A DNA stretch of 64,000 nucleotides from Microcoleus sp. FACHB-831 (GTDB taxonomy: Bacteria > Cyanobacteriota > Cyanobacteriia > Cyanobacteriales > FACHB-T130). The position numbers and the translations under genes were made by a program. Below the pieces are notes generated by a model that was not told the DNA's origin, ran no database searches, and worked only from the letters and a program-made list of their open reading frames with translations. Positions within the stretch are counted from its first letter, which is position 1; every line of letters begins with the position of its first letter. Location of the stretch: assembly GCF_014695585.1 (NCBI RefSeq), contig NZ_JACJON010000029.1, forward strand, positions 1 through 64,000. The letters run 5' to 3'. Positions 1,360-8,851 of this stretch are shown piece by piece.

Positions 1360-1430
1360 TGGGTGGTATAGGAGTTGAACCTATCTCTGCGGATTAAAAG
1401 CCCGCTGCACAGCCGATATGCCAACCACCC
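1360..1430 (-). tRNA. tRNA-Lys(TTT)
   Basis: This is a 71-nt cloverleaf with acceptor GGGTGGT/ACCACCC, discriminator A, a T-arm ATAGG-TTCAACT-CCTAT, and anticodon loop CTTTTAA giving TTT. The D-arm is GCAT/GTGC. CCA is not encoded. Confidence 0.85.
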
Positions 1431-1438
1431 TCAAATAA

Positions 1439-1513
1439 TCCGAGTGACAGGATTTGAACCTGCAACATAAAAGTCCCCAGACAGACGCGATCGCCAAACT
1501 GCGCCACACCCGG
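1439..1513 (-). tRNA. tRNA-Pro-like gene with a broken anticodon stem
   Basis: The acceptor CCGGGTG/CACTCGG, a Pro-type D-arm and the T-arm GCAGG-TTCAAAT-CCTGT are intact. The anticodon region reads TCTGT-CTGGGGA-CTTTT, so the 3' half of the anticodon stem no longer pairs with the 5' half. Anticodon GGG (Pro) is the best reading. It may be a pseudogene or rely on an unusual fold. Confidence 0.5.
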
Positions 1514-1599
1514 ATAAAAAGCTTGAGTTTGCAGGGACACGATATATCGTGCCCCTACGATGCAGTACTCCTGCTGCACCTAATTTGTGCAGAAAGAGT

Positions 1600-2805
1600 C
1601 TACTTCAGAATCTTGGAGACAACGCCAGCACCGATAGTGCGACTGCCTTCGCGAATGGCAAAGCGCATACCTTGCTCGATCGCGATCGCCTTGAATAACT
1701 CAACCGTCATCTTGACGCGATCGCCCGGTATCACCATGTCAGTTGCACTGCCATCTTCTGCCGTGAAAGATGCGATCGTACCCGAGATATCGCTTGTCCG
1801 CACGTAGAACTGAGGACGATAGCCTGGGAAAAATGAAGTTTTGCGACCTCCTTCTTTTTCCGTCAGGAAGTAAACCTCAGACTCAAACTGAGTGTGAGGT
1901 TTAATCGAACCGGGCGCAGCAATTACCATACCCCGCTCGACTTCATCTTTCTCGATACCCTGAAGCAACAAACCGGTAGTATTGTGAGAAATCCTGAGCG
2001 CGTCGATAACCGTTGTACTGCGAGTGTCTTTGAGTCCAACCAGTTCAAGCGTATCGCCAACCTTGACTCTACCGCCCTCGATCCTACCCGTCGCCATCGT
2101 ACCCCGACCTTTGATCCAGAAGACATCCTCCACTGCCATCAGGAAAGGCTTGTCCAGTTCCCGTTCTGGTGTGGGAATGTAGGAGTCTACAGCATCCATG
2201 AGTTCGTAGATGCGATCGACCCACTCATTCTGACCTCGCTGAGTCTTAGGTGCAGCCGTCATCTTCTCCAACGCTTGGAGTGCCGAACCTGCCACAATGG
2301 GAATCTCATCACCGGGGAAGTTGTAGGAACTCAGGAGATCGCGAATTTCCAGTTCCACTAACTCCACCAGTTCTTCATCGTCCACCATGTCTTTCTTATT
2401 TAAAAAGACAACGAGGTGAGGCACTCCAACCTGCCGTGCCAGCAGGATATGCTCCCGCGTCTGCGGCATTGGGCCATCAGCCGCCGACACCACCAAGATG
2501 GCACCATCCATTTGAGCAGCACCCGTAATCATATTTTTCACGTAATCAGCATGACCGGGGCAGTCTACGTGAGCATAGTGTCGAGCACTGGTTTCATACT
2601 CAACGTGAGCCGTATTAATCGTGATTCCCCATTGCCTTTCCTCTGGGGCTGCATCGATTTCATCGTACCCTTTAGCTGTTGCCTGACCCAGCGCTGCTAG
2701 AGTCATCGTAATTGCTGCCGTTAAAGTCGTTTTTCCGTGGTCAACGTGACCGATGGTGCCGATATTGACGTGGGGTTTAGTCCGCTCAAATATTGCGCGT
2801 GCCAT
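1600..2805 (-). CDS. tuf: divergent elongation factor Tu inside the tRNA array
   Basis: EF-Tu delivers aminoacyl-tRNA to the ribosome as a GTP complex. I start at ATG 2805 ([12 protein letters not shown]), giving 401 residues; the frame extends upstream over tRNA genes but lacks EF-Tu similarity there. GTPase motifs are intact: GHVDHGKTT (19-27), DCPGHADY (81-88, catalytic His85), NKKD (136-139), GSAL (173-176). Relative to normal cyanobacterial EF-Tu (about 409 residues) it lacks about 8 residues in domain II, just before GLLLQGI near residue 278. Sites that contact tRNA or the amino acid are altered: the switch-I Arg of EEKARGIT is Trp59, the residue after Phe229 is Trp230, the Arg of the IERG motif is Gly244, and the pocket Asn is Thr276. 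AGGAG lies about 17 nt upstream, which is far. It sits among tRNA genes on the same strand, so it is probably co-transcribed with them. It is likely an array-specific paralog; the housekeeping tuf is not in the window. Confidence 0.93.
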
Positions 2806-2850
2806 GCATTTGATACTTGATACTCCTTTTACTTTTACTTGGTGGAAACT

Positions 2851-2920
2851 TCCTCGACCTGAATTGGAACCAGGAACCCTGCGGTTAACAGGTGAGAAAT
2901 CTGGCGTTGAGCGATCGAGG
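2851..2920 (-). tRNA. degenerate tRNA-like sequence (Asn-derived?)
   Basis: The ends pair (CCTCGA with TCGAGG) and a T-arm CCTGG-TTCCAAT-TCAGG is visible. The centre reads CCTGTTAACCGCAGG, which could give an Asn GTT loop but with poor stem pairing, or a shifted 4-bp stem. The D-arm is not recognisable. It is probably a decayed tRNA lying 46 bases upstream of the EF-Tu start. Confidence 0.35.
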
Positions 2921-2925
2921 AATAA

Positions 2926-3018
2926 CCCCTTACCCAAGAGTCGTTCGCGAAGCGTTCTCCGAAGGAGTACTTGGTCGCCGTCCTTAGGAGGGACAGGTCT
3001 CCATCCCGCAGGTAAGGG
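2926..3018 (-). tRNA. tRNA-Arg(CCT) with a 24-nt insertion in the T-loop
   Basis: The acceptor CCCTTAC/GTAAGGG, D-arm CTGC...GGAG, anticodon arm TGTCC-CTCCTAA-GGACG (anticodon CCT) and T-stem CCAAG/CTTGG match the sister tRNA-Arg(CCG) at 3191-3259. The T-loop is 31 nt instead of 7. The extra 24 nt form two mini-hairpins (CTCC-TTC-GGAG and CGC-TTC-GCG) and resemble the small dispersed repeats of cyanobacteria. Without that insert it would be a normal-looking member of the array. Confidence 0.6.
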
Positions 3019-3026
3019 AAGGATTA

Positions 3027-3103
3027 ACCCGTGCAAGTTTGTAAAGCATTAGGTTTAGTCGGTTAACAGCCGAGTATGTATGCTTTACCTGTTAGGGCAC
3101 GGG
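3027..3103 (-). tRNA. tRNA-Asn(GTT)-like gene with a degenerate T-arm
   Basis: The acceptor CCCGTGC/GCACGGG is perfect and the anticodon arm TCGG-CTGTTAA-CCGA gives GTT. The segment where a T-arm should be has no GTTC motif and no clear stem. It is probably a pseudo-tRNA or an extreme variant. It lies 8 nt from the next tRNA-Asn. Confidence 0.4.
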
Positions 3104-3110
3104 TGAGAAT

Positions 3111-3186
3111 TGGCTCCGGGAGTAGGACTTGAACCTACAACGACGCGGTTAACAGCCGCGAACTCTGCCAATTGAGCTATCCCGGA
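3111..3186 (-). tRNA. tRNA-Asn(GTT)
   Basis: A canonical cloverleaf: acceptor TCCGGGA/TCCCGGA, D-arm GCTC...GAGT, anticodon arm CGCGG-CTGTTAA-CCGCG, and T-arm GTAGG-TTCAAGT-CCTAC. The discriminator is G and CCA is encoded at 3113-3111. It is the most canonical Asn tRNA of the array. Confidence 0.93.
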
Positions 3187-3190
3187 ATAA

Positions 3191-3259
3191 CCCCTCGCCC
3201 AAGAGTCGAACTTGGTCACCAGCCTTCGGAGGGCTAGGTCTGCATCCCGCAGGCAAGGG
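3191..3259 (-). tRNA. tRNA-Arg(CCG) with a mini D-loop
   Basis: A 69-nt gene with acceptor CCCTTGC/GCGAGGG, discriminator G, anticodon arm TAGCC-CTCCGAA-GGCTG (anticodon CCG) and T-arm CCAAG-TTCGACT-CTTGG. The D-arm is CTGC-GGGAT-GCAG, a four-pair stem with only a 5-nt loop. It is the parent type of the insertion-bearing tRNA-Arg(CCT). Confidence 0.75.
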
Positions 3260-3538
3260 AAAAAAGTAATTTCAAATTTCAGATTGAAGTTGCAGATTTA
3301 AAAATTGAAATTAATTGTAAAAACTGAATCAGTTCTAATTTGAGAGGTTTTATATTCATGGCTTCTACAAATCCCAGCTTTTTTCATTTTGTAAGGTACG
3401 CGATCGCATATTTGTTGCGCTAACGTTACCAATCAACCGCCGCTACTAACCTCAAATACCTAATAGATAACCTTTCGGTGCTCGGGTGCATTGGGGTTGT
3501 TATGCTGTTCGACCGGGTAGCATTTTTTTACTCATAAC
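3260..3538. other. intergenic spacer inside the array
   Basis: This 279-base AT-rich spacer separates tRNA-Arg(CCG) from the HEPN-like gene. I see no tRNA fold or clear ORF. A GC-rich bit near 3479-3510 may be a decayed tRNA end, but it does not fold. Confidence 0.4.
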
Positions 3539-4498
3539 TCACATCTTTCGTAGATTTAGAAACTTCCAAGTCGCTGTCTGACCAAGTTTGCTAACTTCTG
3601 ATCTGATCCTTGCCTGAACAATATCGCCTTCTTTGATGCCTTCCTTTTCTAAAAGTCGCTTATCTTCTTCTTCCAAATCCACATTGACTTGTAAGCTATT
3701 GCTTACATCTTCAAGCGTAATTTCTGGAGGCTCAATGTCCAAATCAACTTCCAACACTGTATAAAATCCTGAAAACACAACTATTTTCGTGTTTGGATGG
3801 AAAGCCGTAGGCATTCCAAGAAGAATTGAAGAAGCATTTCTAAGCTTCAAGTTCACATCTTCAGAGTTTTTAACGGACTCATAATTCTCCGACACAGACT
3901 GCTTTGTTGCTTCGTCTACGACTTTCAGAAAACGATCAAACGTCATCTCCGGTGTTGGTGGAAGTTCACCAATCAGATCGCTGACTATTTTCTTAAATTC
4001 ATTCAATACCTGTATTGCATCACTCTTTAACTCATTATTATCCTTTTGTTTGAAGTCTTGATTGTAATGTAGACAGTCATTTCTAATTTTTCGTATTACA
4101 TCAAGACTGCCGTGAATGGTTTCTGTAATAAGACCTTCATTTTTTAGGGTGTTGATTCTTCTATACTGACTTTCAGTAACTAGCTTTTCCCGCCCCAAAT
4201 TGGTAGCTAAAAACTTTGTGAAATCTTCAGCCGAGATTCCTGTGAGAGCAATACAGCCAGTGTAAAACCCAAATTCAAATAAATTTTCCGCCTCTTTCAA
4301 AAGTTTTATAAAATCGCTGACAGATGCTAAATATAAAATATCTTCAATTAACCATTTTCTTTCAATAATCTCATCAAGATTATTATCGAACCATTCTTTA
4401 ATAATATCTCTGTATGCTGCTTTATCTCTCTCGATATATACCTTTCTTTGGCTTCCATCTATTAAAGAATAATTATATTTATTAAAGTCAATATACAT
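3539..4498 (-). CDS. HEPN-motif (DUF4145-like) protein within the tRNA array
   Basis: A 319-residue soluble protein. An all-helical region at about 60-190 contains IRKIRNDCLHYNQDF, in which Arg139 and His144 form an Rx4H motif like that of HEPN/DUF4145 domains. HEPN domains are often RNases in defence, toxin-antitoxin and RNA-surveillance systems. The C-terminal part (about 220-319) is acidic and beta-rich, without a motif I know. Base composition is AT-rich compared with the flanking core genes, which suggests transfer. It lies on the tRNA strand between Arg(CCG) and Ile(GAT)-like, so it could be co-transcribed. The HEPN assignment rests on the motif and its helical setting only. Confidence 0.55.
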   Translation of the reverse strand: MYIDFNKYNYSLIDGSQRKVYIERDKAAYRDIIKEWFDNNLDEIIERKWLIEDILYLASVSDFIKLLKEAENLFEFGFYTGCIALTGISAEDFTKFLATNLGREKLVTESQYRRINTLKNEGLITETIHGSLDVIRKIRNDCLHYNQDFKQKDNNELKSDAIQVLNEFKKIVSDLIGELPPTPEMTFDRFLKVVDEATKQSVSENYESVKNSEDVNLKLRNASSILLGMPTAFHPNTKIVVFSGFYTVLEVDLDIEPPEITLEDVSNSLQVNVDLEEEDKRLLEKEGIKEGDIVQARIRSEVSKLGQTATWKFLNLRKM

Positions 4499-4709
4499 AA
4501 TTCTACAGATAGCTTTTCGGTAAATTGATTTCCCTATACTAGCAGATAGTCTCCAAGCAATGCCTTCACCAGCAACCTAGAGCAACAAAGCTATTAATTG
4601 TGTCGCAGTTGCGGTTGAACTCTCCTATTGGTAATATTATCCCGCACTGCCGGTCTAAGGCACTCAAGTCTAGAAATACTACCGCATAAAGCGGTCTGCT
4701 TATGAGCAA

Positions 4710-4781
4710 TCCACCGGGGAGGTACTGCCCCTCCTACCTCTGCGTTATCAGCACGGTGCCTCGCTTCTCGGCCTCCGGTGG
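4710..4781 (-). tRNA. non-canonical tRNA-Ile(GAT)-like gene
   Basis: A 72-nt cloverleaf with acceptor CCACCGG/CCGGTGG, D-arm GCC/GGC with loop GAGAAGCGA, and anticodon loop CTGATAA (anticodon GAT). The T-stem GGAGG/CCTCC carries the loop GGCAGTA, identical to the loop of the gene at 1282-1353. The anticodon stem has one C-A mismatch. It is the only Ile(GAT) candidate in the array. Discriminator A. Confidence 0.55.
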
Positions 4782-4785
4782 AAAA

Positions 4786-4871
4786 CCGAAGATGAAGGAA
4801 TCGAACCTTTACAGGTATTACCTGTACCCCAGCTTTCGAGACTGGTTGCCATCCATTTAGCAGCATCTTCC
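4786..4871 (-). tRNA. tRNA-Ser(CGA)
   Basis: A class II tRNA with a long variable arm (TACAGGTAATACCTGTA). Anticodon arm CCAGT-CTCGAAA-GCTGG gives CGA. T-arm AAGG-TTCGATT-CCTT. The exact acceptor register is uncertain by one base because GAAGATG/CATCTTC pairs better than the register starting one base earlier. Confidence 0.8.
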
Positions 4872-4914
4872 TTAAAGCACACCAAATAACTATTGCCGTC
4901 TAGGAGTGCAAGCT

Positions 4915-5003
4915 TGGAGGAAGGTGGAAGAATCGAACTCCTACGGTTATTAGCCGTACCACGGTGTTCAAGACCGCTTGCCGTCCACTCGGCGGCACCT
5001 TCC
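4915..5003 (-). tRNA. tRNA-Ser(TGA)
   Basis: Class II cloverleaf: acceptor GGAAGGT/ACCTTCC, long variable arm, anticodon arm GCGGT-CTTGAAC-ACCGT (TGA). CCA is encoded at 4917-4915. Discriminator T is unusual for Ser, which normally has G73. Confidence 0.87.
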
Positions 5004-5008
5004 TTGAG

Positions 5009-5083
5009 GGTGTCTGACGGGACTCAAACCCGTTACGGCTTGCCTCACAAGCAAGTGCCGCGATCGCTTTGGCTTCAGACACC
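5009..5083 (-). tRNA. tRNA-His(GTG)
   Basis: The acceptor GTGTCTG/CAGACAC carries the extra 5' G-1 opposite C73, the hallmark of tRNA-His. Anticodon arm CTTGC-TTGTGAG-GCAAG gives GTG. T-arm ACGGG-TTTGAGT-CCCGT. A HIP1 octamer falls in the D-loop. Confidence 0.9.
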
Positions 5084-5087
5084 ATAG

Positions 5088-5160
5088 TGGAGTCAAGGGG
5101 ACTCGAACCCCTCACATCCTGCGTGCAAAGCAGGCGCTCTACCAAATGAGCTATGACCCC
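5088..5160 (-). tRNA. tRNA-Ala(TGC), copy 1
   Basis: Canonical cloverleaf: acceptor GGGGTCA/TGACTCC with the G3-T70 wobble pair that identifies tRNA-Ala, discriminator A, anticodon arm CCTGC-TTTGCAC-GCAGG (TGC). Confidence 0.93.
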
Positions 5161-5167
5161 GTAAAGG

Positions 5168-5240
5168 TGGATCTGGTGGGGGTCGAACCCACAGCCTCTT
5201 CTTTGCAAGAGAAGCGTTCTCCCATTGGAACTACAGACCC
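5168..5240 (-). tRNA. tRNA-Ala(TGC), copy 2
   Basis: Acceptor GGGTCTG/CAGATCC keeps the G3-T70 Ala identity pair. Anticodon arm CTTCT-CTTGCAA-AGAAG gives TGC. Its sequence differs from copy 1 in nearly every stem, so it is not a recent duplicate. Confidence 0.92.
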
Positions 5241-5247
5241 ATTTAGG

Positions 5248-5321
5248 CAGGAGTGGTAGGACTTAAACCCACATCATCCGAGGTAGAAGCTCGGCGCTCT
5301 ATTCCCTTGAGCTACACTCCC
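5248..5321 (-). tRNA. tRNA-Arg(TCT)
   Basis: Acceptor GGGAGTG/CACTCCT, discriminator G, anticodon arm CCGAG-CTTCTAC-CTCGG (TCT), T-arm GTGGG-TTTAAGT-CCTAC. CCA is not encoded. Confidence 0.9.
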
Positions 5322-5326
5322 ATGAT

Positions 5327-5402
5327 TGGTAGTCCTGACAGGGCTTGAACCTGTGACATCCTCTTTGTAAGAGAGGCGCTCTCCCGACTGAGCTACAGAA
5401 CT
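5327..5402 (-). tRNA. tRNA-Val(TAC)
   Basis: Canonical cloverleaf with acceptor AGTTCTG/CAGGACT, anticodon arm CCTCT-CTTACAA-AGAGG (TAC), and T-arm ACAGG-TTCAAGC-CCTGT. CCA is encoded at 5329-5327. It decodes like the non-canonical Val gene at 1282-1353 but is unrelated in sequence. Confidence 0.92.
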
Positions 5403-5405
5403 AAA

Positions 5406-5477
5406 AGCGGATGATGGGACTCGAACCCATGCGCTAAGTATGGCGAACTCAGATGCTAGCCACTACATCACACCCGC
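5406..5477 (-). tRNA. tRNA-Gly(GCC) with C33
   Basis: Acceptor GCGGGTG/CATCCGC, discriminator T, T-arm ATGGG-TTCGAGT-CCCAT. The best anticodon arm is TGAGT-TCGCCAT-ACTTA, giving GCC with C instead of the near-universal T at position 33. Confidence 0.8.
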
Positions 5478-5488
5478 ATATCTGAAAG

Positions 5489-5560
5489 AGCGGATAACAG
5501 GACTCGAACCCGTATCATAAGCTTGGAAGGCTATTGTGCTAGCCATTGCACCATATCCGC
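5489..5560 (-). tRNA. tRNA-Gly(TCC)
   Basis: Acceptor GCGGATA/TATCCGC, discriminator T, loop CTTCCAA giving TCC. The anticodon stem has only three good pairs (AGC/GCT), so it is weaker than usual. Confidence 0.87.
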
Positions 5561-5565
5561 TTGAG

Positions 5566-5636
5566 AGCAGGTGGCGAGATTTGCACTCGCAAGAAGGCTT
5601 TACAAGAGCCTCATGTTGCTGTTACATCACACCTGC
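5566..5636 (-). tRNA. tRNA-Thr(TGT)
   Basis: Acceptor GCAGGTG/CACCTGC, anticodon arm AGGCT-CTTGTAA-AGCCT (TGT). The T-loop is TGCAAAT, so the pseudouridine-55 position is G instead of T. Confidence 0.88.
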
Positions 5637-5647
5637 ATTATTCAAAG

Positions 5648-5719
5648 AGCAGACGGCGGGGGTTGAACCCACATCAAGGACTTACCATGCCCTTATGTTT
5701 CCGGTTACACCACATCTGC
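5648..5719 (-). tRNA. tRNA-Thr(GGT)
   Basis: Acceptor GCAGATG/CGTCTGC, anticodon arm AGGGC-ATGGTAA-GTCCT (GGT), T-arm GTGGG-TTCAACC-CCCGC with a weak pair, discriminator T. Confidence 0.87.
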
Positions 5720-5723
5720 TTGA

Positions 5724-5795
5724 AGCAGGCGGCGAGAGTCGAACTCGCATCAGAAGATTACGAAACTCCTATGCTTGCCATTGCACCACGCCTGC
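5724..5795 (-). tRNA. tRNA-Thr(CGT)
   Basis: Acceptor GCAGGCG/CGCCTGC, anticodon arm GGAGT-TTCGTAA-TCTTC (CGT, with a T-T at the base of the loop), T-arm GCGAG-TTCGACT-CTCGC. With its neighbours it gives a full Thr set. Confidence 0.87.
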
Positions 5796-5799
5796 AATT

Positions 5800-5877
5800 T
5801 GGTGGCGGGGGCAGGAGTCGAACCTGCTGATAAGAGGCTTATGAGACCTCCAAGCCTACCCTGGCTACTTCACCCGC
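5800..5877 (-). tRNA. tRNA-Met(CAT), copy 1
   Basis: Anticodon arm GAGGT-CTCATAA-GCCTC gives CAT and T-arm GCAGG-TTCGACT-CCTGC is perfect. CCA is encoded at 5802-5800. The acceptor needs a one-base bulge (GCGGG with CCCGC, one extra C on the 3' side). The initiator hallmark of three G-C pairs in the anticodon stem is missing, so it is an elongator or a CAT-Ile precursor. Confidence 0.82.
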
Positions 5878-5954
5878 ATCGCACCAATACCCTTAACTGG
5901 ACTGGAAAATCAAAAATTATGACTATAATCTTTTTATCGCAATACCTCACAGTT

Positions 5955-6593
5955 ATGGCTCAGAAAGCAGAAGTTGAGTGCGATTACTGCCATAAGCGAT
6001 TTACTCGCTCCATTAGTAAGTACAACCAGGATCTAAAAAAAGGTTGGAGGCAGTTCTGCTCTCAAGAATGTCAATGGTTAGCTCGGAACAAGAGAAAACA
6101 GGTGATTTGTGCCTGCTGTGGTACTACATTTATCAAAGAAGAAGCCCAAATTAGACAAACCAAGAATAATTTTTGTTCTCAATCTTGCTCGGCCAGTTAT
6201 TCTAATCGACATAAAACCAAAGGAAACCGAAGGTCAAAACTTGAAGGTTGGATAGAATCTCAACTATCCCTGCTCTATCCAGCGTTAGAAATACATTACA
6301 ACCGTAAGGATGCTATTAACGCCGAGTTAGACATCTATATTCCATCTCTCAGCCTAGCCATAGAGCTAAATGGAATTTTCCATTATGAGCCGATATATGG
6401 AGAGGATAAGCTGTTAAAAATCCAAAACAATGATGAAAGGAAATTTCAAGCTTGTCTAGAAAAAGGTATAGAGCTATGTTTGATTGATACTTCAAACTTC
6501 ACTTACTTTAAAATAGACAAAGCTCAGAAGTACCTACAAATAGTTACTCAGATCATCGATAAGAAGTTGGCTCATCTTGAAATCTCAAGGTAG
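5955..6593 (+). CDS. Zn-finger PD-(D/E)XK (Vsr-like) endonuclease, homing type
   Basis: This 212-residue protein lies on the strand opposite the tRNAs, filling the only large gap inside the dense part of the array. Two zinc-binding units come first (CDYCHKRF with CSQEC, then CACCGTTF with CSQSC). They are followed by a nuclease fold: Glu of RSKLEGW, Asp of AELDIYIP, Glu of AIELNG, and a later FQACLEKGIELCLID stretch. This resembles the Vsr-like/PD-(D/E)XK homing enzymes known from phages and cyanobacterial tRNA introns. An upstream in-frame ATG at 5919 would add 12 residues (MTIIFLSQYLTV); I prefer 5955 because the Zn unit starts soon after. It is probably a selfish endonuclease that uses tRNA genes as a home. 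Confidence 0.72.
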   Translation: MAQKAEVECDYCHKRFTRSISKYNQDLKKGWRQFCSQECQWLARNKRKQVICACCGTTFIKEEAQIRQTKNNFCSQSCSASYSNRHKTKGNRRSKLEGWIESQLSLLYPALEIHYNRKDAINAELDIYIPSLSLAIELNGIFHYEPIYGEDKLLKIQNNDERKFQACLEKGIELCLIDTSNFTYFKIDKAQKYLQIVTQIIDKKLAHLEISR

Positions 6594-6628
6594 TTGACTT
6601 ATTACCATGCGAAGCTACACCCTACTAA

Positions 6629-6707
6629 TGCTCTTGGTGGGAGTCGAACCCACATATATAGAAATCGGGTCTAAGCCGATCGCGTCTTCCAATTCCGCCA
6701 CAAGAGC
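6629..6707 (-). tRNA. tRNA-Leu(TAG)
   Basis: Acceptor GCTCTTG/CAAGAGC, discriminator A, anticodon arm ATCGG-CTTAGAC-CCGAT (TAG), variable region of about 10 nt, T-arm GTGGG-TTCGACT-CCCAC. It is a minimal class II tRNA. Its 3' end lies next to the endonuclease gene. Confidence 0.9.
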
Positions 6708-6718
6708 AAGAAATTGAA

Positions 6719-6793
6719 TACTCCTGGTGAGATTTGAACTCACATCCTACCGTCCCTGAAACGGTCGCCTCTTTCCAGTTGGGCTACAGGAGC
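6719..6793 (-). tRNA. tRNA-Leu(CAG)-like, class I shape
   Basis: Acceptor GCTCCTG/CAGGAGT, discriminator A, anticodon arm ACCGT-TTCAGGG-ACGGT (CAG). The variable region is only about 5 nt, so it lacks the long arm expected of a Leu tRNA. D-arm sequence matches the Leu(CAA) gene at 7109-7189. Confidence 0.8.
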
Positions 6794-6864
6794 AAACATA
6801 AACGATTTGGGTGATTCGAGTAGTGCGATCGCTGCGCTTCACACATTTAGGATTTAACACCCAA

Positions 6865-6938
6865 TACCCCTGACTGGGATCGAACCAGCATCAACTTTGT
6901 ACTCAACAAAGTATGTCTACCTGTTGCATCACAGGGGC
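6865..6938 (-). tRNA. tRNA-Leu(GAG)-like, class I shape
   Basis: Acceptor GCCCCTG/CAGGGGT, discriminator A, anticodon arm CTTTG-TTGAGTA-CAAAG (GAG), T-arm CTGG-TTCGATC-CCAG. The variable region is about 6 nt, again too short for a class II Leu tRNA. Confidence 0.8.
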
Positions 6939-6941
6939 GTA

Positions 6942-7015
6942 TCGGGATGACAGGATTTGAACCTGCGACCATCAGCTCCCAAAGCTGCTGCGCTACCAAG
7001 CTGCGCCACATCCCG
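6942..7015 (-). tRNA. tRNA-Pro(TGG)
   Basis: Acceptor CGGGATG/CATCCCG, discriminator A, Pro-type D-arm, anticodon arm CAGC-TTTGGGA-GCTG (TGG), T-arm GCAGG-TTCAAAT-CCTGT. It looks functional, unlike the Pro-like gene at 1439-1513. Confidence 0.92.
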
Positions 7016-7019
7016 TTGA

Positions 7020-7099
7020 TACTCCTGGTGGGGATCGAACCCACAAAAATAAAGCACAGATTTTAAGTCTGCCGCGTCTTCCAATTCCGCCACAGGAGT
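7020..7099 (-). tRNA. tRNA-Leu(TAA), intronless
   Basis: Acceptor ACTCCTG/CAGGAGT, discriminator A, anticodon arm GCAGA-CTTAAAA-TCTGT (TAA), about 10-nt variable region. The gene is 80 nt and uninterrupted. Chromosomal trnL-UAA of many cyanobacteria carries a group I intron in the anticodon loop, so this is unlikely to be the housekeeping copy. Confidence 0.9.
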
Positions 7100-7108
7100 G
7101 AGTTTTGA

Positions 7109-7189
7109 TGCTCCTAGTGGGAGTCGAACCCACACATAAATAACAACTACTTTTGAGGTAGCGGCCTCTTCGAGTTGGGCTACAGGAGC
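7109..7189 (-). tRNA. tRNA-Leu(CAA)
   Basis: Acceptor GCTCCTG/TAGGAGC, discriminator A, anticodon arm GCTAC-CTCAAAA-GTAGT (CAA), variable region about 11 nt, T-arm GTGGG-TTCGACT-CCCAC. It shares its D-arm with the Leu(CAG)-like gene. Confidence 0.9.
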
Positions 7190-7195
7190 GTGATT

Positions 7196-7271
7196 TGGCT
7201 GCCCTGCCTGGGTTTGAACCAGGACTCTTCCCGTTCAAAGCGGGAGATGTTGCCAGTTACACCACAGGGCA
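7196..7271 (-). tRNA. tRNA-Gln(TTG)
   Basis: Acceptor TGCCCTG/CAGGGCA, discriminator G, CCA encoded at 7198-7196. Anticodon arm TCCCG-CTTTGAA-CGGGA (TTG), T-arm CCTGG-TTCAAAC-CCAGG. Confidence 0.93.
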
Positions 7272-7276
7272 ATGAG

Positions 7277-7351
7277 TGGATGCCGGGACAGGGCTTGAAC
7301 CTATATCTCAGATTTCAGAGAACTGCGACTTGCCTATTCGTCCACCCGGCA
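7277..7351 (-). tRNA. tRNA-Gln(CTG)
   Basis: Acceptor TGCCGGG/CCCGGCA, discriminator T, CCA encoded at 7279-7277. Loop CTCTGAA gives CTG; the stem CAGTT/ATCTG has one T-T mismatch. T-arm ATAGG-TTCAAGC-CCTGT. Confidence 0.85.
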
Positions 7352-7361
7352 ATGAAATAAA

Positions 7362-7436
7362 TGGCTGCCCTGGTAGGGATTGAACCTACGACCGTTCGCT
7401 TAACAGGCGATCGCTCTTCCACTGAGCTACAGGGCA
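7362..7436 (-). tRNA. tRNA-Asn(GTT), second canonical-type copy
   Basis: Acceptor TGCCCTG/CAGGGCA, discriminator G, CCA encoded at 7364-7362. Anticodon stem TCGC/GCGA with loop CTGTTAA (GTT). T-arm GTAGG-TTCAATC-CCTAC. Confidence 0.9.
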
Positions 7437-7443
7437 ACGACAG

Positions 7444-7517
7444 CCCCCCAGGTCGGAACCGAACCGACGACCTCCTGTGCTTCAAACAGGCGCTACTACC
7501 AACTGAGCTACCGGGGG
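7444..7517 (-). tRNA. tRNA-Phe(GAA)-like
   Basis: Acceptor CCCCCGG/CTGGGGG, discriminator G, anticodon arm CCTGT-TTGAAGC-ACAGG giving GAA, T-arm GTCGG-TTCGGTT-CCGAC. Position 37 is G, whereas Phe tRNAs normally have A37, and A73 is replaced by G. Identity by anticodon only. Confidence 0.78.
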
Positions 7518-7526
7518 AAGTTTCAA

Positions 7527-7612
7527 CGGAGAGGGAGGGATTTGAACCCTCGTCAAGTTACACTCGATCAATCTTTCCAGGATTGCGCCTTAAGCCACTC
7601 GGCCACCTCTCC
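7527..7612 (-). tRNA. tRNA-Ser(GGA)
   Basis: Class II: acceptor GGAGAGG/CCTCTCC, discriminator G, anticodon arm CAATC-CTGGAAA-GATTG (GGA), long variable arm, T-arm GAGGG-TTCAAAT-CCCTC. It looks fully canonical. Confidence 0.94.
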
Positions 7613-7619
7613 ATTTGAA

Positions 7620-7694
7620 CGAGAGCGGAGGGACTCGAACCCCCACGTCTTCGGTTTCGTAGACCGAGATTTTATCCATTTAAACTACGCTCTC
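7620..7694 (-). tRNA. tRNA-Arg(ACG)
   Basis: Acceptor GAGAGCG/CGCTCTC, discriminator G, anticodon arm TCGGT-CTACGAA-ACCGA (ACG, expected to be edited to ICG by TadA). The D-arm is AT-rich. Confidence 0.92.
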
Positions 7695-7727
7695 ATTTGT
7701 TGTAAGGAAAACAGTCAATTGACTGCA

Positions 7728-7799
7728 CTGCCCTGGCAGGAATCGAACCCGCGATCGCCGAGTTAACAGCTCGCTGCTTTACCACTCAGCTACAGGGCA
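7728..7799 (-). tRNA. tRNA-Asn(GTT), third copy
   Basis: Acceptor TGCCCTG/CAGGGCA identical to the copy at 7362-7436, discriminator G, anticodon stem CGAG/CTCG with loop CTGTTAA. CCA is not encoded here. The 14-bp palindrome at 7712-7725 follows its 3' end. Confidence 0.9.
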
Positions 7800-7803
7800 T
7801 TAG

Positions 7804-7878
7804 TAGTGCTGACGGGACTTGAACCCGCAAATCACTTGATTGAAAGCCAAGCGGCTTAAACCATTTGCCTACAGCACT
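7804..7878 (-). tRNA. tRNA-Glu(TTC)
   Basis: Acceptor AGTGCTG/CAGCACT, discriminator A, anticodon arm CTTGG-CTTTCAA-TCAAG (TTC), T-arm GCGGG-TTCAAGT-CCCGT. It is unlike the typical cyanobacterial Glu sequence that also serves tetrapyrrole synthesis. Confidence 0.87.
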
Positions 7879-7886
7879 ATGAAAGG

Positions 7887-7957
7887 CGAGGGGACTGAGA
7901 TTTGAACTCAGATCATCGGTTTTGGAGACCGAGATGTTGCCGTTACACCATCCCCAC
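7887..7957 (-). tRNA. tRNA-Trp(CCA)
   Basis: Anticodon arm TCGGT-CTCCAAA-ACCGA gives CCA, discriminator G as in Trp, T-arm CTGAG-TTCAAAT-CTCAG. The acceptor GTGGGGA/TCCCCTC has one T-T mismatch. Confidence 0.87.
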
Positions 7958-7994
7958 ATAGATTTGAACTTTGAATCTAAAATCCAAAATTCAA

Positions 7995-8077
7995 TGGGTC
8001 GTGCAGGAGTCGAACCTGCGATGCATGAAAGCCACCGTTTTACAGACGGTTGCCTACACCAGTAGGCGACACAACCC
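7995..8077 (-). tRNA. tRNA-Tyr(GTA)
   Basis: Class II: acceptor GGGTTGT/ACGACCC, discriminator A, anticodon arm ACCGT-CTGTAAA-ACGGT (GTA), bacterial-type variable arm, T-arm GCAGG-TTCGACT-CCTGC. Confidence 0.93.
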
Positions 8078-8082
8078 AGAAA

Positions 8083-8166
8083 CGGAGAGGACAGGACTCG
8101 AACCTGCAATGGGATTTCCCAAACTTGTTTAGCAAACAAGCGCCTTAACCATTCGACCACCTCTCC
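8083..8166 (-). tRNA. tRNA-Ser(GCT)
   Basis: Class II: acceptor GGAGAGG/CCTCTCC, discriminator G, anticodon arm CTTGT-TTGCTAA-ACAAG (GCT), variable arm TTTGGGAAATCCCA, T-arm GCAGG-TTCGAGT-CCTGT. Confidence 0.93.
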
Positions 8167-8169
8167 AAA

Positions 8170-8243
8170 TAGCCCCAGGGAGATTTGAACTCCTCGTTTC
8201 CGCCTTGAGGGGGCAGCGTCCTAAACCGCTAGACGATGAGGCT
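8170..8243 (-). tRNA. tRNA-Glu(CTC) with C33
   Basis: Acceptor AGCCTCA/TGGGGCT, discriminator A, Glu-type D-arm (TCGTCTAG). Anticodon arm CTGCC-CCCTCAA-GGCGG gives CTC with C at position 33 where T is almost invariant. Confidence 0.8.
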
Positions 8244-8254
8244 TTGTGTATCAG

Positions 8255-8328
8255 TAGGAGTAGCAGGACTTGAACCTGCGACCTGTCATCTTATGAGGAT
8301 GCCGCTCTACCAACTGAGCTATACTCCC
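8255..8328 (-). tRNA. tRNA-Met(CAT), copy 2
   Basis: Acceptor GGGAGTA/TACTCCT, discriminator A, anticodon stem CATC/GATG with loop CTCATAA (CAT), T-arm GCAGG-TTCAAGT-CCTGC. It could be elongator Met or Ile2 after lysidine modification. It is very similar in stems to the Lys(CTT) gene at 8389-8461. Confidence 0.88.
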
Positions 8329-8375
8329 ATCTCCGCCTTGCCAGAGCGGCGTCCTAACCACTAGACGAGCGAACC
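8329..8375 (-). tRNA. 5' half-tRNA (Glu-type D-arm, anticodon GGC)
   Basis: Reading from 8375: a 5' acceptor strand GGTTCGC, a Glu-type D-arm (TCGTCTAGTGGTTAGGAC), and a paired anticodon arm CCGCT-CTGGCAA-GGCGG with anticodon GGC (Ala). There is no T-arm or 3' acceptor strand; the sequence runs straight into the 5' end of the Met gene at 8328. It is a truncated tRNA or a natural half-tRNA. Confidence 0.55.
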
Positions 8376-8388
8376 TTGCGAACTGAAG

Positions 8389-8461
8389 TGGGAGTAGCAG
8401 GACTCGAACCTGCGACCATACGGTTAAGAGCCGTCTGCTCTGCCAACTAAGCTATACTCCC
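8389..8461 (-). tRNA. tRNA-Lys(CTT)
   Basis: Acceptor GGGAGTA/TACTCCC, discriminator A, anticodon stem ACGG/CCGT with loop CTCTTAA (CTT), T-arm GCAGG-TTCGAGT-CCTGC. Confidence 0.93.
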
Positions 8462-8483
8462 TTAAAACAATTGCAAGGTTGAG

Positions 8484-8557
8484 AGGTCGAGGAGGGATTT
8501 GAACCCACGAATTTCTCTTTTGCAGAGAGACGCCTTCAACCACTTGGCTACTCGACC
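8484..8557 (-). tRNA. tRNA-Cys(GCA)
   Basis: Acceptor GGTCGAG/CTCGACC, discriminator T as required for Cys, anticodon arm TCTCT-CTGCAAA-AGAGA (GCA). The T-stem has one T-T mismatch. Confidence 0.92.
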
Positions 8558-8568
8558 TCGATTATTCA

Positions 8569-8610
8569 GGCAATTTGTTCTCTGCAAGGAGATGCAGATA
8601 CTAAATTGCC
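8569..8610 (-). repeat. two-tier hairpin between tRNA genes
   Basis: The outer arms GGCAATTT (8569-8576) and AAATTGCC (8603-8610) pair over 8 bp. Inside, TCTGCA (8581-8586) and TGCAGA (8593-8598) pair over 6 bp. It lies between the Cys gene and the 9-nt-loop Glu gene. It may be a processing signal or a small element; it does not fold as a tRNA. Confidence 0.5.
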
Positions 8611-8613
8611 CGA

Positions 8614-8686
8614 TAGCCCCAACGGGATTTGAACCCGTGTCTTCCGATCGAAATTCAGAAATCCTTGGCCTCTAGACGATGGGGCC
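8614..8686 (-). tRNA. tRNA-Glu-like with a 9-nt anticodon loop
   Basis: Acceptor GGCCCCA/TGGGGCT, discriminator A, Glu-type D-arm TCGTCTAGAGG, T-arm ACGGG-TTCAAAT-CCCGT. The anticodon stem TTCTG/CGGAA closes a 9-nt loop, AATTTCGAT, with TTC at its centre. Normal loops have 7 nt. Confidence 0.6.
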
Positions 8687-8731
8687 ATGTGATGAGAGCA
8701 ACCAGGTTTAACTGTCTGAATTGCTGCTGAA

Positions 8732-8805
8732 CGAGGCTGACGGGACTTGAACCCGCGACATCTTGTTCGACAGACAAGCACTCTACGCAACTGAGTTACA
8801 GCCTC
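8732..8805 (-). tRNA. tRNA-Asp(GTC), first gene of the array
   Basis: Acceptor GAGGCTG/CAGCCTC, discriminator G, anticodon arm CTTGT-CTGTCGA-ACAAG (GTC), T-arm GCGGG-TTCAAGT-CCCGT. It is the gene nearest the promoter at 9277-9306. Confidence 0.93.
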
Positions 8806-8851
8806 ATAATTTCAGCAGAAGTTCAGCAAATGCTCTCACTACAATCGTGTT

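Follow-up and report, generated by a model that had tools for sequence, protein, structure and literature searches.

The window (the whole 64,000-nt stretch that was analysed, a section of contig C29 in an assembly of 6.42 Mb) contains a tRNA array of 38 ARAGORN genes at 1360..8806, all of them on the minus strand. Within the array lies a tRNA-Arg(CCT) gene with an enlarged T-loop (3018-2926, minus strand; read from the sequence, discriminator at 2926). Its acceptor stem is formed by CCCTTAC (3018-3012) and GTAAGGG (2933-2927). The T-arm (2934..2974) keeps all five stem pairs, CCAAG (2974-2970) with CTTGG (2938-2934), around a 31-nt loop (2969-2939). An inserted element of 25 nt (2944..2968) replaces T55 between T54 (2969) and C56 (2943), and the loop reads T54, then ACTCCTTCGGAGAACGCTTCGCGAA, then C56 GACT. 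Since the 25 nt stand for T55, the net gain is 24 nt. The element can form two mini-hairpins, CTCC-TTC-GGAG (2957..2967) and CGC-TTC-GCG (2946..2954), which like all the parts of this gene are on the minus strand. The sister gene tRNA-Arg(CCG) (3191..3264, minus strand, ARAGORN) has the normal 7-nt T-loop TTCGACT. An enlargement of the T-loop from 7 to 31 nt by a segment with two mini-hairpins, with both T-stem strands paired, had been claimed in an earlier note on this DNA, and the sequence confirms it.

The filled gene gives no ARAGORN call and no match to the Rfam tRNA model (gathering score, E up to 10). When the loop was emptied in silico, ARAGORN called tRNA-Arg(CCT) with the anticodon CCT. 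With the insert in place, none of the 17 pairs of the acceptor, anticodon and T stems is mispaired and the anticodon is valid; by eye, a single mismatch is seen in the D-stem (TGC/GGA). The gene departs from the 7-nt TTCRA T-loop, as its loop is 31 nt long and T55 is absent.

Other unusual genes were observed nearby. An uncalled tRNA-Asn-like RNA at 3026-3104 (minus strand) has an acceptor stem and a GTT anticodon arm, and a 9-bp helix replaces its D and T arms (fold z-score -4.8); it is conserved at 86-88% adjoining Arg(CCT) in the relatives G001, G003 and G005. Degenerate tRNA-like genes lie at 2849-2919 (minus strand, judged by eye) and at 1439-1513 (minus strand; Rfam tRNA match of 35 bits, no ARAGORN call). 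The array also encloses an intact EF-Tu gene of 401 aa (1603-2805, minus strand), which is 80% identical to the housekeeping EF-Tu of the same genome (G000:C61). This EF-Tu gene was not found again in any other stretch that was fetched. The contig also carries a glutamine-synthetase-like ORF, recognised by eye.

The filled gene was considered as the sole Arg(CCT) gene of the genome. This was rejected, because the housekeeping Arg(CCT) was found as two halves around a group I intron of ~300 nt (C18:86982-87386, L139). The filled Arg(CCT) is therefore redundant. Both genes have extra sequence within a tRNA gene. The group I intron of the housekeeping gene is ~300 nt long and matches the group I model RF00028, whereas the insert is 25 nt long and lies in the T-loop, and the window locus gave no match to that model. 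In G002, G007 and G008, the BLAST halves of Arg(CCT) also lie apart; the intron test covered L139.

The earlier note had proposed a mobile repeat tolerated in a tRNA, to be checked by searching the genome for a second copy of the 24-mer and by comparing relatives for an empty site, and it had named the lack of a second copy as the refutation of its reading. No second copy of the 25-mer was found in the 6.42-Mb genome at up to 3 mismatches, and the 24-mer with up to 3 mismatches occurs once in the window (chance expectation 0.00). The 16-nt core has two further matches in the genome at 2 mismatches, the same number as the reversed-pattern control. Local transposition was rejected as the source of this copy, since the element is single-copy in the genome. 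No target-site duplication is visible. The comparison of relatives did reveal empty sites: G001, G003, G005 and G030 have Arg(CCT) orthologs with the anticodon CCT and the loop TTCGACT, and arrays of the same family carry the empty Arg(CCT) gene.

A filled Arg(CCT) gene was found in G224, a genome of another family, with 95% identity to the gene studied here over 100 nt including the insert. Along the array, the best-matching array of other genomes differs tRNA by tRNA (8 for G001, 8 for G004, 7 for G224 and others, of 39 queries, with some ties), so that single genes appear to be swapped between arrays. Given the lack of another copy in the genome, the 95% match to a filled gene in a distant array and the mosaic make-up of the present array, the insert probably came with the gene. 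An alternative is an old insertion which was lost in the relatives; filled orthologs common to several genera could reflect the great age of the inserts and not any recent movement. When the locus was compared with plasmids by BLAST, only the adjoining tRNA-Asn gave a match. A phage origin was unsupported, as one of two scans of viral collections returned one match with 1/5 T-stem pairs and the other returned none.

In relatives, copies of the insert are also present outside tRNA genes (with a query that included the tRNA). One of them, L021 in G003, splits a HIP1 site as GCG|element|ATCGC. A looser element pattern matched 49 of 291 genomes of the order, and most of the copies that were read lie outside T-arms. 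Another loose pattern has tens of copies in some genomes, for example 47 matches in G067 versus 3 in the control. In G304, G313, G370 and G284 even this second loose pattern finds the T-loop copy only, so mobility inside those genomes is without support.

Because two of the copies in relatives also lay inside T-loops, the T-loop form itself was searched. The strict pattern demands G53, TA, the core of the element, C56 R57 A58 N Y and C61, and so predetermines one of the five T-stem pairs. It matched 33 places in 19 of the 388 genomes of the order, and the reversed control matched none. All but one of these places (32/33) are inside the T-loop slot, and the 33rd is in another RNA hairpin. The T-stem is complete (5/5) in 30 of the 32 distinct places and has 4/5 pairs in 2. 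When emptied, 27 of the 32 were called as tRNAs by ARAGORN, versus 0 of the 32 with the insert.

The same pattern was applied to the GTDB species collection, in which 40 places were cyanobacterial and 34 belonged to other phyla. The T-stem has 5/5 pairs in 37 and 4/5 in 3 of the cyanobacterial places, versus 5/5 in 1 of the 34 others. When emptied, 31/40 cyanobacterial places gave a tRNA but 0/34 of the others did, and the acceptor stem, for which no pre-filter was used, was complete (7/7) in 29/40 versus 1/34. The 34 non-cyanobacterial matches behave as chance. T-loop filling is real and, at the sensitivity of the strict-pattern search, limited to cyanobacteria. An assembly error or a chance resemblance would be in keeping with the lone copy in the genome, but G224 carries the same filled gene and the reversed and other-phyla controls are clean; the independent copies refute this explanation, which we consider extremely improbable.

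The filled genes lie mostly among other tRNA genes. At least 4 ARAGORN tRNAs were present within the same locus (at most 8 kb) at 30 of the 40 cyanobacterial places. The other 10 comprise 4 non-tRNA hairpins, 2 edges of arrays known elsewhere and 4 sparse or cut-off stretches. No lone housekeeping tRNA with a strict-pattern insert was recognised among the 40. Places in a non-cloverleaf RNA hairpin instead of a tRNA number five in total, 1 of the 33 in the order genomes and 4 of the 40 in the GTDB set. At L212, L218, L263, L267 and L277, a non-cloverleaf RNA was observed whose (G/A)CAGG..CCTGT hairpin contains this element, and at L212, L218 and L277 a tRNA-like RNA starting GGGGCCGCGATTGG is filled as well.

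When all forms including sister subtypes were collected, 70 distinct filled sequences with a full T-stem were obtained by a finder that required TA as the first letters, AC ahead of RAN and all T-stem pairs. A lax acceptor filter (at least 6/7) was used, and 62 of the 70 have 7/7. When emptied, 61 were called as tRNAs by ARAGORN with 17 amino-acid labels; with the inserts kept, there was 1 call. Among the 70, no fewer than 3 represent a tRNA-like RNA and not a tRNA. These results show that the T-loop slot was filled repeatedly across genera and tRNA species.

Several further RNAs were noted. L092 (G000:C67:330161-330293) is a tRNA-like RNA in which a TTCG-capped stem replaces the anticodon arm. 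A similar RNA, L290 in G239, has two Y-RNA-like matches around it (RF02553, under the gathering score), and in a tRNA-like RNA close by a type-B element fills the T-loop. At L097, L102, L104, L106, L206, L208, L209 and L212, there are tRNA calls with the stop anticodons CTA (labelled Pyl) and TTA, which are possible suppressor tRNAs.

The variety of the inserts was examined by scanning 26 tRNA-holding stretches (549 tRNAs, including one rRNA-operon stretch, L212, and some sparse stretches) for enlarged T-loops with only T54 and the stem fixed, and by a narrower second scan. The base after T54 was free only in the first scan. Eight of its rows without the two-hairpin form were set aside together with some alternative lengths of one and the same place, as were the long-loop rows of the narrower scan that yielded no tRNA. 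Other two-hairpin inserts were found in the T-loop slot, with the endings GAAGCAAGCTAC, GAAGCCGC..GCGTCTAC, GATGCCTACGGCTAC and others, and, with those eight rows excluded, all the retained first-scan inserts start with TA. Of 291 genomes, 8 held matches to the type-B pattern, at 12 places in all, namely 7 non-T-arm repeats, 4 tRNA T-loops and 1 place in a tRNA-like RNA. These results show that different subtypes occupy the same T-loop slot.

Hairpin 1 is fully paired in 35 of the 39 type-A T-loops, as CCC..GGG, CTC..GAG or CTCC..GGAG, and one of its pairs is altered on both sides within the tRNA-His group. In hairpin 2, CGC and GCG are fixed by the pattern, and the free evidence is limited to CGCC..GGCG in 2/39. 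Nested elements were found in Thr(GGT) of both G001 and G003, at a second place in G001 and in a Tyr gene of G375, with loops of 55, 55, 55 and 48 nt. In each, the inner element lies in the hairpin-1 triloop of the outer one and reads T[..]C, which shows that nested copies obey the same T|C junction rule as the T-loop copies. The junction T[element]C is common to the T-loop, nested and HIP1 sites.

The SDR elements described by Elhai et al. in 2008 are reportedly 21-27 nt long, SDR5 is said to have a two-hairpin structure with compensatory changes, and nesting is reportedly found in the family for SDR1 and SDR4. The insert studied here resembles SDR5 in its length (25 nt, within 21-27 nt), its two mini-hairpins (hairpin 1 in three base-paired forms, hairpin 2 largely fixed by the pattern), its near-identical core and its nesting. 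According to PMC4390886, SDR5 is inserted between nt 3 and 4 of HIP1, and the T|C junction of L021 in the HIP1 site of G003 is the SDR5 junction given there. The copy in the window lies in a tRNA T-loop instead of a HIP1 site and is single in G000, unlike the many copies elsewhere, for example in G067. Compared with the HIP1 copy, it starts with TA and has one extra T after GCG. Because this copy departs from SDR5 in the HIP1 site and in dispersal, it is called SDR5-like and not SDR5. Of the mobile repeat proposed by the earlier note, the membership in a micro-repeat class holds, given homologous copies outside tRNAs, a split HIP1 site, empty sites and nesting; the dispersal in its own genome does not hold, as the copy is single, and arrival with the gene fits better. 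REP/TnpA-Y1 elements are likewise small hairpin repeats, and their spread is linked to single-strand DNA processing (PMC6006769). The element studied here might move by means of a single-strand HuH-type enzyme or through an RNA intermediate.

The array itself resembles the trn operon of Anabaena PCC 7120 in that dozens of additional tRNA genes follow one another closely on a single strand. As described in PMC10272220, that operon is located on a megaplasmid, is normally silent, is induced by translation-targeting antibiotics and is repressed by TrcR, which also represses rtcB. The array studied here lies on the contig with the glutamine-synthetase-like ORF and, unlike the trn operon, contains an EF-Tu gene. 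In the text of PMC10272220 the words "T-loop" and "insertion" occur 0 times, and the sections consulted mention no T-loop insert. The excerpt of PMC5733544 describes conserved UUCxA T-loops in cyanobacterial tRNAs and likewise mentions no T-loop insert. Literature searches found no report of cyanobacterial tRNA T-loop inserts, and an earlier mention in the 2008 SDR work, in tRNA-operon work or in array surveys is possible.

The stems of the tRNA body were shown to usually stay paired around the insert. Emptied filled tRNAs have 21.0 pairs (n=39) versus 21.1 for the ARAGORN tRNAs of the same stretches (n=549) and 21.8 for the non-array tRNAs of the genome (n=42), all sets being pre-selected by ARAGORN. 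Among 35 filled sequences of 11 ortholog groups (two sequences without the expected anticodon left out), 21 have no mispair in 17 pairs, 31 have at most one, and 4 have 2-3. In the tRNA-His group (5 sequences), 95.7% of the cells pair and 5 pairs are altered on both sides, of which two belong to the T-stem. This number of both-sides pairs was matched by shuffles in 20/500 and the paired percentage in 0/500, slid structures reached at most 47.8% and 1 pair, and the number of pair types is not raised (362/500 shuffles). One member of this group has a broken anticodon stem.

That the insert killed a redundant tRNA gene, the remainder of which is now decaying, is a real possibility somewhat short of an even chance. 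Unconstrained folding yields a T-stem of 4 or more pairs in 20/70 filled sequences versus 49/70 emptied ones. The predicted unconstrained fold of the filled Arg(CCT) differs from the cloverleaf, which lies 12.5 kcal/mol above the predicted minimum-energy fold. The D-stem mismatch of this gene, the 2 mispairs of the filled Arg(CCT) in G224, the four sequences with 2-3 mispairs and the lack of a recognised strict-pattern insert in a lone housekeeping tRNA also agree with decay. Against decay, emptied filled tRNAs are paired as well as the called tRNAs of the same stretches, at most one mispair is found in 31/35, with none in 21/35, and the tRNA-His group has both-sides changes in 5 pairs. Such pair-preserving differences among filled orthologs would instead suit tRNAs that are expressed under translational stress and function with the T-loop protruding, so that processing enzymes, EF-Tu or tRNA-cleaving toxins might recognise them differently. 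The induction of the Anabaena trn operon by translation-targeting antibiotics, as given in PMC10272220, and the EF-Tu gene of the array, 80% identical to the housekeeping one, point in the same direction. We consider this reading rather unlikely. Independent insertion or gene conversion could mimic pair-preserving change, the slot of the Gly, Glu and Met groups is filled by different subtypes, predicted folding is disturbed, T55 is lost, the orthologs of the relatives are empty, and the EF-Tu gene did not turn up elsewhere among the fetched stretches.

It is very unlikely that the element is an intron which is cut from the precursor before the halves are joined, for example by RtcB. One exact slot, the two-hairpin shape and the kept stems would agree with excision, as would the repression of both rtcB and the trn operon by TrcR in Anabaena (PMC10272220). 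Homologous copies exist outside tRNA genes, a joined product would be without T55, which the element replaces, and no bulge-helix-bulge is evident by eye; all of these argue against excision. We know of no bacterial tRNA-splicing system of this excision type. A broader proposal is that stress-induced cyanobacterial arrays keep a standing stock of tRNAs, covering most amino-acid specificities, with a hairpin-pair T-loop module that derives from a mobile element, and that these filled tRNAs are expressed and retained by selection with a remodelled elbow or are repaired through excision and joining by RtcB; this appears rather doubtful.

We consider it probable that the insert is a mobile micro-repeat of SDR5-like type, joined at T|C, which came with the gene and is tolerated in redundant array tRNAs. 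This assessment covers the origin and the class of the insert, and the functional alternatives above are compatible with it. The element would belong to a class of cyanobacterial SDR5-like micro-repeats of ~21-33 nt with two mini-hairpins, whose junctions would read 5'-T[element]C-3' mostly within a hairpin loop. The TTC of a T-loop would suit such a junction, with T54 and C56 retained and T55 replaced. The present insert probably arrived with its tRNA gene through exchange between tRNA arrays. It may persist through the redundancy of array tRNAs, which was checked for this Arg(CCT), and also because the tRNA elbow carries it on its outer corner. Transcripts of the filled tRNA probably include the insert and would be less able to fold. 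Thus filled tRNAs are likely tolerated in spare genes.

Few parts of any RNA are as conserved as the T-loop. An insert that recurs there at one exact position, in dozens of genes of many specificities, provides a natural series for the tolerance of the tRNA elbow, and the micro-repeats gain a precise and testable junction rule, T|C and mostly within hairpin loops. Because a class of filled genes escapes the standard tRNA finders, array sizes based on their counts are underestimates. Should the filled tRNAs prove functional, the textbook requirement for T55 and a 7-nt T-loop would need revision.
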